From a virus, in the IMG/VR virus record IMGVR_UViG_3300010373_000106, positions 1 to 30,845 of that record: a stretch of DNA of 30,845 nt. One strand, written 5' to 3'. Each line of letters begins with the position of its first letter. Within the stretch, counting starts at the first letter, position 1. The notes beneath the pieces are model-generated. The model was not told the origin of the DNA. It worked only from the letters and a program-made list of their open reading frames with translations, and did no database searches. This document shows positions 1-6,087 of this stretch, one piece after another. The translations under genes and the position numbers were made by a program.

Positions 1-1292
1 GCTACTTTGTGGCGTCGCTGCACACGGCGACTCCGACGTACCCGACTGACCCGGGTCGCCCGCCGTCCAACTCGGTCGGACCTGGTGGCACCCCGCCCCC
101 GGTGGACAATCCGGCTAAGCCCCCGGGCCTGCTGGAAACGCTGCCGCCCAACCTGACACCGGACTTCCCGTCGCCCAACATCAACAGCCCGGCTCAAGAG
201 CTGTGGCCACAGATTCCTGGCATGCTGCCCGGTGGTGGCCCCATGGGGACCGGACTGATCCCGGGTCTGCTGCAGCCGCAGAACAACGTGCCCTCTCAGG
301 CACGGCCCGAGCCCAACCCGGCAGCCCCCACGGTGCCAGGACAAAGCACCCGGGTCGGGTCCTATGTGGCGAGCCTGCACACGGCAGTGCCCCAGGGCCA
401 GCGTTCCGACGACGACCCCTCCGATGGGGACGCCAACTTCGCCGGGATGTCCAACCCCAATTGGGCGGACGAGCCGTTTGCGGGCTCGGGGGCTGACCCC
501 AAGTTCTACATGAGCGATTCGGCGAGCTACGTCGATGACCACGAACGTCCCGACTTCAGCCCTGAGGACTGGTACAAGGACGACGGCAGCGACATCATCA
601 AGTTCAACGACTCGCGGTCGAGCCCGCAACAGGGGCCGCGCAACGCCTCGTTGCTGCACTACGCCCTGGACCCCAACGACGAATCGTCGGGCATGTTCAA
701 CCCGGCCAACCCCACCGGCAACGACTGGGAGCAGGCCTCGGGTGAGCCGTTCATGGATGAGGTGGGCAAGCAGGTCCACAACATGACCGGCCAGGGCGTG
801 CTCGATCAGGTGATGGGCAAGGGTGGCGGCGGTGCTGCCGGAGAAGCCGGTGAGGCTGGTCTGGCCGAAGAGGCTCCCGAGCTGATGGCCCTGGCGAGAG
901 TGCAGCGTCACGGTGGCCCGCGTCAGCAGGTTCGGGTGGACCGGCGCAACGGCTGGGAGAAGGAGCGCGTCGCAGCTGCCCTGCCCGAGGACTTCGGCTA
1001 CAACGGCGGCTCCTCGCTGGAGGACTTCTCGGTCGGTGACGAGATGGGCGGCGGGGGTGACATCCTGGCCAACTTCCAGCGCTCCGGTGCTGCTGCGGCC
1101 ATGATGGTCGGCTCTGGTGGTTCCAACCGGGGCAATGACGACATTGCCCAAGCCGCTCAGGCATTCCTGCGCACGGCGGGGCGTAAGTACACCCCCGAAG
1201 AACAGCGGATGTTGGAGGCCGAGGCGCACCCCATGGGAGCACGCAACCTGCCTACCGATGACGACCTCGCAGGCACGCACTACATCTTCTGA
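1..1292 (+). CDS. Pro/Gly-rich virion-associated protein, 5' end missing
   Basis: The reading frame is open at the left edge. A GTG at position 9 could start it, but the codons before it (Tyr-Phe) are in frame and the octapeptide YFVASLHTA recurs 120 residues later as YVASLHTA, so the gene probably begins upstream. The first 130 residues are Pro/Gly-rich, the middle is acidic, a glycine and alanine stretch lies near 820-880, and the C-terminus ends in GTHYIF. It sits directly before the head protease gene, a place used by portal or minor head proteins. I do not recognise a family and infer only a virion or head-assembly role. It stops 53 bases before the next start, with a promoter-like motif between. 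Confidence 0.75.
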   Translation, partial: YFVASLHTATPTYPTDPGRPPSNSVGPGGTPPPVDNPAKPPGLLETLPPNLTPDFPSPNINSPAQELWPQIPGMLPGGGPMGTGLIPGLLQPQNNVPSQARPEPNPAAPTVPGQSTRVGSYVASLHTAVPQGQRSDDDPSDGDANFAGMSNPNWADEPFAGSGADPKFYMSDSASYVDDHERPDFSPEDWYKDDGSDIIKFNDSRSSPQQGPRNASLLHYALDPNDESSGMFNPANPTGNDWEQASGEPFMDEVGKQVHNMTGQGVLDQVMGKGGGGAAGEAGEAGLAEEAPELMALARVQRHGGPRQQVRVDRRNGWEKERVAAALPEDFGYNGGSSLEDFSVGDEMGGGGDILANFQRSGAAAAMMVGSGGSNRGNDDIAQAAQAFLRTAGRKYTPEEQRMLEAEAHPMGARNLPTDDDLAGTHYIF

Positions 1293-1345: not shown

Positions 1346-4300
1346 TTGGACGCCGCCTACGACTGGGGAGACCCGCACTACGTTGCGGCGTCTGACCCTG
1401 CGAACTATGAGCCGCAGCGCTCTGTTCGCACGGCGTCCTCCTATGACGGTGCCCGCCAGATGCTGGCGGGTTACCGGGGGCGTTACGCCAGCATCCAAGA
1501 GGGCTTCGAGTTCAAGCCGGGCTTCATCTACACCCAGGTGCGCGCCATCAGTGCGCGGATCAACCAGAACTACGACGGCTGGCCCTCGGGCGAGCTGAAG
1601 AAGTCCTACCGCACCTTCATCGGCAAGCCGGTGTTCGTCAACCACCAGAACTTCGACCCCTCCAAGGCGCGGGGCAAGGTGGTCGCGGCCAAGTACGTCG
1701 AGGCCGGGGACGACAAGTACATCGAGACCGTCATGGAGATCGACGCCCACCGCTTCCCCAAGCTGGCGCACGAGATTCGCACGGGTGGTCTGGACAGCGT
1801 CTCGATGGGTGTCGAGGCCGGATTCACCATCTGCTCCTACTGCGGCAACAAGGCCGTCGATGTCCCCGACTTCTGCAGCCACGTGCGCTACCACAAGGGC
1901 CAGGTGCTCCCGCGCATCAACGCTCGCACCGGGGCCAAAGAGGACGTGCTGGTCTACGAGAAGTGTTACAAGCTGGGCTTTTTTGAGCTGAGCTACGTCT
2001 TCGATCCTGCCGATGAGACCGCCGTGGTCTCGCGGGTGATCGCGGCAGGCAACCACAGCAGTGAGTACGCCTACGACTACGACGCGGAGCCTGACGACTT
2101 CGCCCCCTGGGTAGGTGACCCCGACAGCGAAGAGGGTGCAGGTGGCCACATCCACCAGCACTTCTACGAGGACGGCCCTCACTACGGAGCTGCCGCCCAG
2201 CAGCCGGTCTATCCCGACGAAATCGTGGAGGGCCAGATGCCTTACGGCCAGATGCCGACTGCTCGCCGTCGCCGCGCTTACGGGGAAGTCGAGGCCCCCG
2301 AAGACGTGGACACGCTGCGCAACGAAGACCAGGACGAAAACGACGAGTTCAAGCACTACGTCGAGAGCCCCAAGGAACTACAGGGGCCAGACCTGGACCA
2401 GACCAAGCGCCTGGACCGCGCGCAGGAACAAGAAGGTCTCGACTCTGGCCGTCGTGTCGAGGATGTCGAGGACGTAGGAGGAGCCCCCATGCCCCGAAAT
2501 GCACGACGCCGTCAGGCCTGGGGGGATGCCGTCATGCCCAACCCCAAGAGCAAGGGCAAAACGCATGACTCTCCTGATGCCTGGGACTACGACGACTACG
2601 GCAACGCCCTGGGCCAAAAGGTCCCCTCCCACCACGAGAACTATCCATCCCCTCCGCACCGGGGTGCTCCCGGTGACATCTACGCCCGAAGGAGCACTTC
2701 CATGGCTGATGTACTGGTTGACCCCCGCACGGGGCGTCGCTACTACGCCGCTTCCGATGACGACCTCATCTCTGAGGCCGAGGACGACCTGGAGAAGGCC
2801 GACAAGGCTTCCAGCGACGACTACTCCGATGACGCCGGTAGTGATGCCGGAGGTTCGGACGACGACTACTCGGACTCTGATGACGACTCCGACGATGACT
2901 CGGATGACGACGACGACGACTCCGATGACGACGACTCGGACAGCTCGTCCTCGTCCTCATCGAGCAAGTCGGACTCCAGTTCGGACTCCAAGCCGCCGTG
3001 GCTGGACAAGAAGTCTCGCCGTCGTCGCCAGGCCTTCGACAACCCCTACTACGAGGACCCGCGCTCTCGCGGCAAGCACGAGAACTACAACGACCCCTAC
3101 GTGGGCGAGGGCGAAGTCACGGGCGATTACATCCGCCCGACCCACGACGACCCGATGGGGCACATGCAGCGTGCCCACCCTGGCCCCGCGCCAGAACACG
3201 GTCGTCATGAAGGCCGCAATGGAAAACGGCGGTCTTCGACCCGCAATAAGAGAAGGGCAACCCGAGAAGGAGGGCCGGTGAGTCTCGCAGACCGCAACCG
3301 CGTCGCCAGTGCTGGCCGTCGTCGTCACTACGCCGATGACTCGGGCCACACCGATGGCGGGCCATACCACACCGATGACAACGACCAGGGCGTGCAGGAG
3401 GACGTGTTCATTTCGGACACGCCTTCGGCGGAGAGCTTCGATCCGCCCCAGCCTGGCGACAAGCCGATCTCCAACACGGAGAACAACTTGGTCGCCAGCC
3501 TGACCCAGCGCATCCAACAGCGCAACGCCCAACAGCGCCGCGACCTGATCGCCTACGAGCAGATCACCGGGCGTCGCCTGACCGCTGACAGTTCGGACAA
3601 CTGGCCGTCCCCGCCCGAGCAGTCGGTCAAGGGTGCGGACACTCCCGACACCGTCAACCCGACCGTCAACAGCGGCACGGACGGGGAGAAGCTGACCGGC
3701 GACGACTTCGACAACGTCGCGCTGGACAAGGTCACCACTCAGCCCAAGGACGCTTCGCTGCGTTACTTCAGGGCTTTCGACAACTGGCTGGCCCAGACCA
3801 CGGGTCGCACGGCCAACCAGCACACCTCGACGTTCCTGCGTCGCCAGGCTGCGCGGTACTGCTCGGCATCGGGTCTTCCGGTCGAGGCTCTGTTCCCCGC
3901 CCTGGGAAATGTGCTGCGAGAAGCCAAAAGGGTTGAGGGAGGCAATATGCGACGCCAAGCCGTGGACCTGGACACAGCAGCTCCACAAGAGCGCCAAGAC
4001 GTGCAGGCTCCGGTCAGCAACACGACCGACGCCGACGCACAGGCCTCGCAGTTCGACCTCAAAGACTTCGGCAACAACGCCGGGGACAACTTGGCCGACC
4101 CAGACACGAGCACAGACTCGCAGATTTGGGCACCGGACAAGGGCGACGCGATCAAGAACGCCAACCGGAAAGCAGATGGCATCACTGCGGTTCGCTATGC
4201 AGAAGCCTTCATCGAAGCCGGACTGGCCGACAACACTCCTGAAGAGAAGTGGAAGATCGCTGGCCTCGCCCAAACGATGCGCCACGGCACCATTGTGGAC

Positions 4301-4495
4301 CGCACTCGATTGCTGGATGCCGTCAACGCGATCAACTCGCGTCGGCAAGCTGCAGCACGCCGCACCGCTGGGATCAATCGCGGTGCCGCACGTGGCCTCC
4401 CGCCCGGCCTTGGCCAGCGTCAGCTGACCGCAGGCCAGCACTACAGCGCCACAAACGACATCGCAACCGACTCGGCCATGTTCTTCAAGGGCTAA
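1346..4495 (+). CDS. Prohead protease fused to long scaffold-like modules
   Basis: 1049 residues from a TTG preceded by GAGGGAAAGGGA. Residues about 55-190 look like a serine prohead protease: a candidate catalytic His100 in PVFVNHQ and Ser153 in DSVSMGVE match the H...S arrangement of HK97-type and herpes assemblin-type proteases. A Cys/His cluster follows (C163, C166, C177, H179, H183), unusual and possibly metal-binding. The remaining 850 residues are hydrophilic, with an Asp/Ser run at 489-547 and repeated Arg-Arg-Arg-Gln-Ala motifs, as expected of scaffold cleaved during maturation. Five internal in-frame starts each have a good ribosome-binding site (2237, 2489, 2702, GTG 3278, 3947), so shorter nested products are likely. 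Position before decoration and capsid genes supports the role. Protease call is good; functions of the later modules are unknown. Confidence 0.75.
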   Translation: MDAAYDWGDPHYVAASDPANYEPQRSVRTASSYDGARQMLAGYRGRYASIQEGFEFKPGFIYTQVRAISARINQNYDGWPSGELKKSYRTFIGKPVFVNHQNFDPSKARGKVVAAKYVEAGDDKYIETVMEIDAHRFPKLAHEIRTGGLDSVSMGVEAGFTICSYCGNKAVDVPDFCSHVRYHKGQVLPRINARTGAKEDVLVYEKCYKLGFFELSYVFDPADETAVVSRVIAAGNHSSEYAYDYDAEPDDFAPWVGDPDSEEGAGGHIHQHFYEDGPHYGAAAQQPVYPDEIVEGQMPYGQMPTARRRRAYGEVEAPEDVDTLRNEDQDENDEFKHYVESPKELQGPDLDQTKRLDRAQEQEGLDSGRRVEDVEDVGGAPMPRNARRRQAWGDAVMPNPKSKGKTHDSPDAWDYDDYGNALGQKVPSHHENYPSPPHRGAPGDIYARRSTSMADVLVDPRTGRRYYAASDDDLISEAEDDLEKADKASSDDYSDDAGSDAGGSDDDYSDSDDDSDDDSDDDDDDSDDDDSDSSSSSSSSKSDSSSDSKPPWLDKKSRRRRQAFDNPYYEDPRSRGKHENYNDPYVGEGEVTGDYIRPTHDDPMGHMQRAHPGPAPEHGRHEGRNGKRRSSTRNKRRATREGGPVSLADRNRVASAGRRRHYADDSGHTDGGPYHTDDNDQGVQEDVFISDTPSAESFDPPQPGDKPISNTENNLVASLTQRIQQRNAQQRRDLIAYEQITGRRLTADSSDNWPSPPEQSVKGADTPDTVNPTVNSGTDGEKLTGDDFDNVALDKVTTQPKDASLRYFRAFDNWLAQTTGRTANQHTSTFLRRQAARYCSASGLPVEALFPALGNVLREAKRVEGGNMRRQAVDLDTAAPQERQDVQAPVSNTTDADAQASQFDLKDFGNNAGDNLADPDTSTDSQIWAPDKGDAIKNANRKADGITAVRYAEAFIEAGLADNTPEEKWKIAGLAQTMRHGTIVDRTRLLDAVNAINSRRQAAARRTAGINRGAARGLPPGLGQRQLTAGQHYSATNDIATDSAMFFKG

Positions 4496-4530: not shown

Positions 4531-5064
4531 GTGTTTTACGCACCAGCGAGTAACCCCGGGCTGAAGCGAACGATCCGACCGATCTACGCCCAGCACCAGG
4601 CCACTACTTATGGCGGGTTCTTGGACCCCAACTGGAATCGCTCTTTCGACATCCTGCCGGGTACGGTCATGTGCCGCCTGACCAAGGAAATCTTCACCCC
4701 GTTCACTGGGACGGGGAACCAGAAGCCCTTCGGTCTTGCTGCCCTTTTCGTAGCTCCGCAGCTGGGTGTCGATGAAGTCACTGCCACTGGCACCAACCTG
4801 TTCACGGTGTGGGTCGGTGGCGAGCAGGCCGTCTTCGAGGTCCTGGCCCCCGCGTTCGACGGGGCCGCTGACTGGACCGCAGCCAACGTCACCGATGGTG
4901 GCGAGCAGCTGTTGACGGCCACTAACACAGGTCTTCTCACGCCGACCGGAGCCAACAACGCGAACGCGATTGCTGAGCTGATCGACGTGGAAGACACCGG
5001 CAAAATTCTCATCCGCATGAAGCCGACGAACTTCGCCAGCTCCGTTGCGGTGGGCGCTGCATAA
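4531..5064 (+). CDS. Probable head decoration protein
   Basis: 177 residues from GTG, with AAAGGAGG upstream. The N-terminus has Pro, Tyr and Gly, and the body alternates short hydrophobic strands with Gly/Thr/Asn turns, ending in SVAVGAA. Size, beta-rich character and position immediately before the major capsid gene match capsid decoration or stabilisation proteins of tailed phages. Only 15 bases separate it from the capsid gene, so the two should be co-translated at high level. No family motif is visible, so the call rests on position and composition; a second minor capsid subunit is the alternative. Confidence 0.6.
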   Translation: MFYAPASNPGLKRTIRPIYAQHQATTYGGFLDPNWNRSFDILPGTVMCRLTKEIFTPFTGTGNQKPFGLAALFVAPQLGVDEVTATGTNLFTVWVGGEQAVFEVLAPAFDGAADWTAANVTDGGEQLLTATNTGLLTPTGANNANAIAELIDVEDTGKILIRMKPTNFASSVAVGAA

Positions 5065-5079
5065 GAAAGGGAGACGAAT

Positions 5080-6087
5080 ATGCCAACGGCAATTCCGCAG
5101 GCTATCGGCTCTGGCTTGCAGCGCGTGGCGCGCAACTCGGAGGACTACGTCGCCGACATCCAGCGCGTCATGGACCGCATGGGTGGGCGCAAGCTCTCCC
5201 ACCGCGAGAAGCAAGCCAAGCTGGCACACATCCTGGGCGACCGCCAAAACGGGATGATGCGACTCGGCCAGTCCATGATTGGACCGATTCAGCTGCAGCT
5301 CCGCTACCAAGGTATTCTCCGCAATGTTTTGCTGGAAGATACCTTGACCCCGGGCGTTCCGATTCAGTACGACGTGCTGGACGACCTCGGGCAGGCATAC
5401 ATGCTGCACGGCGACGAGGGTGAAATTAAGATCACCCCCTTCGAGGGCAAGCGCGTTGAGGTGCAGCTTTTCCGCATCGCCTCGTTCCCGAAGATCAAGA
5501 AAGAGGACCTGTACTACCTCCGCAGCAACATTGTGGAGTTCACACAGGACCAAACGAAGCAGGCCATCATGCGGCAGGAAGACTCCCGCCTGGTGACTTT
5601 GCTGGAGGTGGCGGCAGCTAACTACCGGCTGATCGACACCACTGCGGTTCCTGGGTCAGGTTCTCTGCCCAACGAAATCACCATCGCTGGGTCCACCCTG
5701 ATGCCGTCCGACCTGTACACGGCGGTGACCTTCACCGACCAGCGCATGTTGGACTCGTCTCGGCTCCTGTGCAACCCGCAGGAATACCGCGACTTCTACA
5801 GGTGGGACATCGCGACGACGGGCTGGGCCTTCAAGGACAGCGTCGTGGCTGGCGAGAAGATCGTCCAGTTCGGTGAGTTCCAGATCGGTAAGTCCATCAT
5901 CATCCCGCGTGGCACCGTCTACCTGACGCCGGAGCCGTCATTCCTGGGTGTATTCCCGGTGATGTACAGCTTGGACGTGGAGGAGAACAACCAGGTGGAG
6001 CAGTTCCACAAGGGCTGGGTTATGGACGAGCTGGTCGGCATGGTGGTCCTCAACCCCCGAGGCATCATCATCCTGCGCAAGAGCTAG
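5080..6087 (+). CDS. Major capsid protein
   Basis: 335 residues, ATG start with AAGAAAGGGAGA upstream. The N-terminal 70 residues are helical and charged (YVADIQRVMDRMGG onward), like a delta domain, then comes a mixed alpha/beta body with features expected of HK97-fold subunits: PGVPIQYDVLDD, a basic KRVEVQLFRIASFP segment, and an acidic/helical stretch around residue 150-180. The C-terminal part is beta-rich and ends in LNPRGIIILRKS. It follows protease and decoration genes and is ended by a strong terminator, the usual pattern for a highly expressed capsid gene. Family assignment is by position, length and general pattern; a structure prediction would settle it. Confidence 0.8.
   Translation: MPTAIPQAIGSGLQRVARNSEDYVADIQRVMDRMGGRKLSHREKQAKLAHILGDRQNGMMRLGQSMIGPIQLQLRYQGILRNVLLEDTLTPGVPIQYDVLDDLGQAYMLHGDEGEIKITPFEGKRVEVQLFRIASFPKIKKEDLYYLRSNIVEFTQDQTKQAIMRQEDSRLVTLLEVAAANYRLIDTTAVPGSGSLPNEITIAGSTLMPSDLYTAVTFTDQRMLDSSRLLCNPQEYRDFYRWDIATTGWAFKDSVVAGEKIVQFGEFQIGKSIIIPRGTVYLTPEPSFLGVFPVMYSLDVEENNQVEQFHKGWVMDELVGMVVLNPRGIIILRKS

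Follow-up and report, generated by a model that had tools for sequence, protein, structure and literature searches.

The open reading frame (ORF) at positions 1346 to 4495 of the window, the 30,845-nt (30.8-kb) IMG/VR virus record analyzed here, encodes a head-maturation protease that continues into a conserved module, then an acidic one, and ends in a scaffold-like region at the C terminus. It is probably a nested gene stack, in which internal initiation yields C-coterminal products that share one tail, are made in amounts suited to head assembly, and are cleaved by the protease. Kin of the window are found in the Bixzunavirus (Mycobacterium Bxz1) group, the Gordonia phages Skog, Pupper and Stormageddon, Mycobacterium phage Phrappuccino, and the Rhodococcus phages Finch and E3 (E3 record HM114277). 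The ORF matches phrog_2774 (E 1.8e-232) and, toward its N terminus, also phrog_18299, 'head maturation protease' (E 9.7e-19). A LysM-type gene ends 5' of it, and the cement and major capsid protein (MCP) genes lie 3'; the order protease, cement, MCP (1346-4495, 4531 and 5080) matches that of relatives and is also the lambda C/Nu3- and Mu-type order (protease, decoration/cement, major capsid protein). Members of the PHROG 2774 / Bixzunavirus family are annotated 'hypothetical protein', as most of them are, or 'capsid maturation protease', and none of the records examined carries an internal start annotation. In Gordonia phage Skog, the protease-scaffold gene (NC_054725 gene 158) is labelled 'LysM-like endolysin', a label probably shifted from the neighboring gene.

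Table 1. Features of the protease-scaffold ORF and its 3' neighbors in the window. Values in kcal/mol are predicted anti-Shine-Dalgarno (anti-SD) energies.
Feature	Position	Strand	Details
Head protease / scaffold fusion ORF	1346-4495	+	1049 aa, TTG start
Protease domain	1484-2050	+	AlphaFold pLDDT 91.8; VZV protease Z 11.1, T4 gp21 Z 10.6
Internal ATG	2237-2239	+	leader GTGGAGGGCCAG (GGAGGG just upstream); -9.8 kcal/mol; product 752 aa; lineage-specific
[RK][TQRH]A motif, one of ten in the ORF	2270-2278	+	candidate maturation cleavage site
'AYGE..VDTLR..HYVESPKEL' conserved module	2276-2476	+	present in fused relatives
Internal ATG	2489-2491	+	leader TAGGAGGAGCCCCC (AGGAGGAG); -10.2 kcal/mol; product 668 aa
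Internal ATG (site C)	2702-2704	+	leader GAAGGAGCACTTCC (AAGGAG); -8.5 kcal/mol; opens acidic module; product 597 aa
Acidic Asp/Ser-rich module	2702-3017	+	opened by site C
Internal GTG (site A)	3278-3280	+	leader GAGAAGGAGGGCCG (GAAGGAGGG); -12.7 kcal/mol; opens scaffold-like region; product 405 aa
Scaffold-like C-terminal region	3278-4492	+	AlphaFold; conserved in relatives
Helical bundle 1 of scaffold-like region	3743-3943	+	AlphaFold
Internal ATG (site B)	3947-3949	+	leader GAGGGAGGCAAT (GAGGGAGG); -11.8 kcal/mol; between two helical bundles predicted by AlphaFold; product 182 aa
Helical bundle 2	4163-4372	+	AlphaFold; in part aligned by profile comparisons with distant clades
Conserved C-terminal tail, xAANDPxxDSxLF type	4460-4492	+	common to all products; similar tails in distant clades
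Nine other [RK][TQRH]A motifs	1427, 2510, 3026, 3251, 3806, 3842, 3953, 4343, 4361	+	candidate cleavage sites
Cement protein	4531-5064	+	PF23968, E 9.6e-82
Major capsid protein	5080-6087	+	phrog_2522, E 4.2e-141

The protease domain, modeled as residues 47-235, is predicted to adopt the herpesvirus assemblin/T4 gp21 fold, an assignment made by VIA-align comparison only: the closest structures are varicella-zoster protease (Z 11.1), T4 gp21 (PDB ID: 5jbl, Z 10.6) and pseudorabies protease (Z 10.4), many herpes proteases score Z 7-10, and unrelated structures begin at Z 6.1. Searched against the PDB with a sequence profile, the protease gave no significant match, and Foldseek alone returned nothing with E below 0.001 for the model. 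No ClpP/SppA-like chain of the lambda gpC type appears among the structure matches listed, although such an absence does not exclude one. The domain carries a conserved His (VNH, H100) and an SVSMG serine motif; S151, S153 and H100 are invariant in 8 sequences and the corresponding His and SM serine in 35, and these Ser and His residues are the putative catalytic ones. Past the serine motif, the domain also contains a conserved, zinc-ribbon-like insertion (C-x2-C...C-x-H). In two relatives, Eggerthella phage LE2-3 (L018, 5890-9003; gene annotated 'tRNA synthetase') and L084 (5812-9084), an intein-like stretch that begins CFVPGTHI... or CFVAGALI... and ends VHNC directly follows the VSMG active-site motif, and a further relative (L063) shows a long gap within the domain.

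The scaffold-like region shares its reading frame and its C terminus with the protease ORF, and its 405 residues are predicted to form one long helix, two helical bundles set in disordered linkers and a short C-terminal helix. Its position, its disorder and helix content, and profile matches between clades, rather than a link to a known scaffold family, suggest that it is a scaffold. The conserved tail at its end is a candidate capsid-binding element.

The original prediction had placed five ribosome-binding-site (RBS)/start pairs inside this ORF and, on rechecking the sequence, all five are in frame where it had put them, with predicted products that are C-coterminal (Table 1). For comparison, the energies at the MCP start, the cement start and the ORF's own TTG are -8.6, -11.9 and -7.0 kcal/mol. 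A sixth in-frame ATG, absent from that list, lies at 2534 (aa 397) behind a G-rich leader (-9.3 kcal/mol). When the protein was held fixed and synonymous codons were shuffled (3000 shuffles, threshold -8 kcal/mol), 1.31 ATGs at or better than the threshold were expected against the 5 present (0/3000 shuffles); with ATG, GTG and TTG counted together the figures were 6 against 2.43 (P = 0.017). Synonymous shuffling revealed no such excess in any of nine further long window ORFs. It had also been claimed that each start marks a module boundary, which holds for 2702, 3278 and 3947 and roughly for 2237 and 2489, the two that flank the AYGE module.

Fused relatives were drawn from annotated phages and from the IMG/VR loci of a profile scan (69 loci, against 2 from a single-protein scan), and about 50 have the protease, AYGE module and scaffold region in one frame. 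The 3278- and 3947-type sites were anchored on protein features. For the 3278 type, the start was placed from the protein alone and the SD looked for afterwards; an SD 5-mer at proper spacing was present in 31/33 distinct sequence contexts versus 8.8 expected under synonymous randomization, these contexts being counts among phylogenetically linked relatives and not independent origins, whereas control in-frame ATGs carried an SD in 28/501 cases. This start lies just 5' of the scaffold region in all cultured lineages examined (Bxz1-type, Tonenili, Skog/Pupper, Phrappuccino, Stormageddon, Finch and E3). Conservation of an internal start with its RBS before the scaffold extends to distant clades: more distant fused relatives (L065-L068, L084 and L088) have an AAGGA-type leader and ATG at a seemingly comparable place, and two others (L062 and L064) have GGAAGGAGG leaders ahead of an in-frame ATG or GTG.

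The window's clade has the 3947-type start, as do ORFs of the Bxz1 type, the Skog type and Phrappuccino, with 13/26 contexts passing versus 2.2 expected and many of the others carrying AAGGGAG-type leaders. The closest relative (L009) has GAAGGAGGTCGGGCT-ATG at this site and carries AAGGAGGT despite changed bases. Finch and E3, like several other lineages, lack the ATG, and that of Stormageddon is off register and lacks an SD. The 2702-type start is limited to relatives with the acidic module, and 13 other lineages have it in the corresponding position, behind an SD-like leader; under a protein-only criterion, for a site definition set partly after inspection, 16/37 pass versus 2.7 expected, and 11/136 do so among other ATGs of the region. 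The 3947 and 2702 starts are conserved in the window's own clade, and the 3278 start is near universal in fused relatives. The four nearest relatives (L021, L022, L025 and L023), in which the peptide is conserved too, retain the leader at 2489, and that at 2237 is essentially unconserved, only L023 having anything comparable. Lack of conservation in relatives had been named as grounds for giving up the internal leaders; three sites (2702, 3278 and 3947) survive this comparison, 2489 fares weakly and 2237 fails it.

At the 3278-type site the SD occurs in each of the three codon phases and is encoded through different peptides (KG, RKD, TRS and EGG, as in KGTAN, RKDST, TRSSA and EGGP), with AAA used for 21/32 Lys (background 13%) and GGA for 29/35 Gly (background 14%). 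This use of all three phases, different amino acids and rare codons indicates that selection acts on the RNA. Upstream of 3947-type starts, AGG or AGA makes up 17/20 Arg codons versus 11% in the ORFs. All three site types are predicted to lie in less structured RNA than the remaining in-frame ATGs (P 1e-11, 4e-8 and 4e-5), a difference that goes with lower GC (0.57-0.59 versus 0.64); at the window's own 2702 site structure is not reduced (-14.1).

Related phages in which the modules are separate genes, which the original prediction had proposed to look for, do exist. In one clade (L070-L081) a stand-alone gene encodes the protease (220-225 aa), and downstream of it lie genes of 213-249 aa and 424-516 aa and then cement and MCP, so that protease, middle module and scaffold stand apart; in two members of the same clade (L082 and L083) the middle and last genes form one 911-aa ORF, inside which the ATG of the last gene (MSRFDDEL) is retained with CAGGAG upstream. 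The C-terminal part of the last gene is linked to the fused scaffolds through L065-type scaffolds (hhalign E 1.8e-7 and 1.5e-7), the direct match to window-type scaffolds being weak (E 5e-4, probability 31), and no homology was found between the middle gene and the AYGE module (hhalign probability 0.8). The jumbo phages Bacillus G and Tunturi_5 have short, separate proteases. The modules therefore appear to be genes in some phages and to be fused, with starts kept, in others. The proposal that the ORF is a set of fused genes gains from this clade, and from the scaffold RBS and ATG kept in L082 and L083, and is compatible with a lambda-type reading; the split and fused arrangements make the two alternatives one history, whether of fusion or of fission.

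Could a single functional internal start of the 3278 type suffice, giving one scaffold as in lambda C/Nu3 and Mu, with the other starts as by-products of linkers rich in Arg, Gly and Glu? The 3278 start is by far the most widely conserved, those at 3947 and 2702 are absent from whole lineages, and RR/GG/EE-rich linkers can spell SD-like DNA. Against this stand the rare Arg codons 5' of 3947-type starts, the SD excess over synonymous randomization at 3947- and 2702-type sites and the reduced RNA structure at both, which together point to RNA-level selection there too, and we regard the single-start explanation as unlikely. Chance production of SD-start pairs by a long GC-rich, Arg/Gly-rich ORF would fit the fact that whole-ORF excess at -8 kcal/mol is not general, being missing from the Bxz1-type, Skog, Stormageddon, Finch and E3 ORFs, and that a codon-randomization energy test was not significant at most single loci. 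The missing excess in those ORFs is explained by their modest 3278-type SD (mostly AAAGGA, about -5.9). Given the shuffling result in the window, the 0/9 control ORFs and the positional conservation in relatives, chance is disfavored for 3278 and 3947, may still account for 2237, and as a general account has a negligible probability.

That the leaders are relics, left unused after genes were fused through loss of stop codons, agrees with the split and partly fused arrangements and with the L5 gp82-family module, which is separate in phage Acolyte and in Bxz1-type ORFs sits just after AAAGGAGG-ATG. Unused leaders should decay, whereas the 3278-type SD is kept across changed amino acids, codon phases and some 30 distinct contexts, which makes this explanation highly improbable. 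Slighter still is the likelihood that the SD-like stretches pause ribosomes at module boundaries for folding, with the start codons incidental: the SDs do lie at module boundaries, mostly in disordered linkers, but pausing requires neither a start codon at SD spacing nor weak RNA structure, and SDs are rare at other in-frame ATGs.

In phage lambda, the Nu3 scaffold arises from an internal in-frame start of the protease gene C, and the C protease is of the ClpP/SppA-like class. The window shares with lambda a protease-scaffold ORF 5' of the decoration and major capsid genes and, by prediction, an internal start that gives a C-coterminal scaffold; it differs in its predicted assemblin/gp21 fold, in having at least three conserved starts rather than one, and in its extra acidic and variable modules. 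The view that the ORF is an extended version of lambda C/Nu3 is partly supported: it holds for three or more starts in series (2702, 3278 and 3947), and not clearly for five. Herpesvirus UL26/UL26.5 is also a C-coterminal nested scaffold gene with an assemblin-fold protease, but there the short form comes from its own transcript, whereas bacterial-type RBSs are seen here and several nested forms are predicted. The T4 gp21 prohead protease is alike in fold but is separate, shorter and without a fused scaffold; the PHROG 2774 / Bixzunavirus proteins are of the same family and have the fused architecture in common. For lambda, a complex of C, Nu3 and portal is on record (PMC3224144). In phage Mu and Pseudomonas Mu-like phages, an in-frame scaffold start lies within the protease gene with an SD 8-9 bases upstream, and one internal start has been described (PMC4378225) where the window has several; the likeness drawn here is one of arrangement. 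Our literature search found nothing usable on the virion proteomes of Bxz1-type phages or of E3, or on internal starts in PHROG 2774-type ORFs.

In the nested-stack reading that we favor, full-length translation would give a 1049-aa head-maturation protease with its own acidic and scaffold regions, and initiation at 2702, 3278, 3947 and possibly 2489 would give shorter proteins with the same C terminus: the acidic module plus scaffold (597 aa), the scaffold (405 aa) and the C-terminal part of the scaffold (182 aa). The likely purpose is stoichiometry, scaffold being made in many copies, the acidic form in smaller number and the protease in few, and the common scaffold tail may act as a packaging handle that brings all products into the prohead. 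As in lambda and Mu (PMC3224144, PMC4378225), scaffold would be in excess and the protease would enter the prohead via its own scaffold region.

The protease would then cleave these products, possibly at Arg/Lys-x-Ala sites following each internal start. Motifs of the form [RK][TQRH]A number 10 in the ORF versus 2.5 expected (P 0.001), and they are also enriched in the protease and LysM proteins of E3 and in two small E3 genes, with no enrichment in most neighbors tested. An RRxA motif lies at most 14 residues after each of the five window starts, with a chance of about 5e-4 by a simple estimate for a motif picked post hoc, and R-x-A is present in the MCP N termini listed. These candidate sites are suggestive of a protease that cuts scaffold and capsid proteins. 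They end in Ala, unlike the T4 site, as T4 gp21 cuts after Glu; herpes proteases likewise cut after Ala. The upstream LysM-type gene (window 3-1292; 36599-38410 in L017) has R-T-A type motifs in common between the two and a conserved C-terminal end, LRTAGRxY...GTHY, and its protein may be another substrate of the head protease.

Inserts between protease and scaffold vary among relatives: Bxz1-type and Skog ORFs have an L5 gp82-family domain (PF25735), Bigswole has a methyltransferase-like domain (weak match), and other inserts resemble parts of an endolysin or a tape-measure peptidase. In-frame enzyme-like inserts were seen in L001 (6004-10116), L016 (5004-9539), L007 (5004-8969) and L003 (4929-8177). 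In L001, which is Bxz1-type, the L5 gp82 module begins directly behind the start noted above, and the free-standing gene of this type is in the 52-kb phage Acolyte. A short FEAxVLxAxG-type motif precedes successive inserted modules in Bxz1-type ORFs (L034, L001, L007 and L016), possibly as a head-targeting or spacer element. The pattern suggests that the protease-scaffold junction may be an insertion site for cargo. We tentatively raise the further possibility, which we hold to be doubtful, that the ORF is a cargo-loading polyprotein, whose inserted modules would be packaged into the head by the scaffold tail and freed at Arg/Lys-x-Ala, with the RBSs setting copy number per layer and the enzyme-like modules of relatives (L5 gp82 family, methyltransferase-like and peptidase-like) lying at an insertion hot spot. 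If so, enzyme-like modules would enter the host with the ejected DNA.

Current annotation hides a putative scaffold within a mostly 'hypothetical' protein. Cultured members (Bxz1-type, Skog, Phrappuccino and E3) make the nested-start reading directly testable, Phrappuccino carrying 2702-, 3278- and 3947-type starts, and the fusion can be traced through natural relatives in which the modules are separate genes. Phages need scaffold far in excess of protease, with both in one shell, and a single internal start is the textbook answer; the family of the window ORF seems to rely on a series of conserved starts and a common tail.
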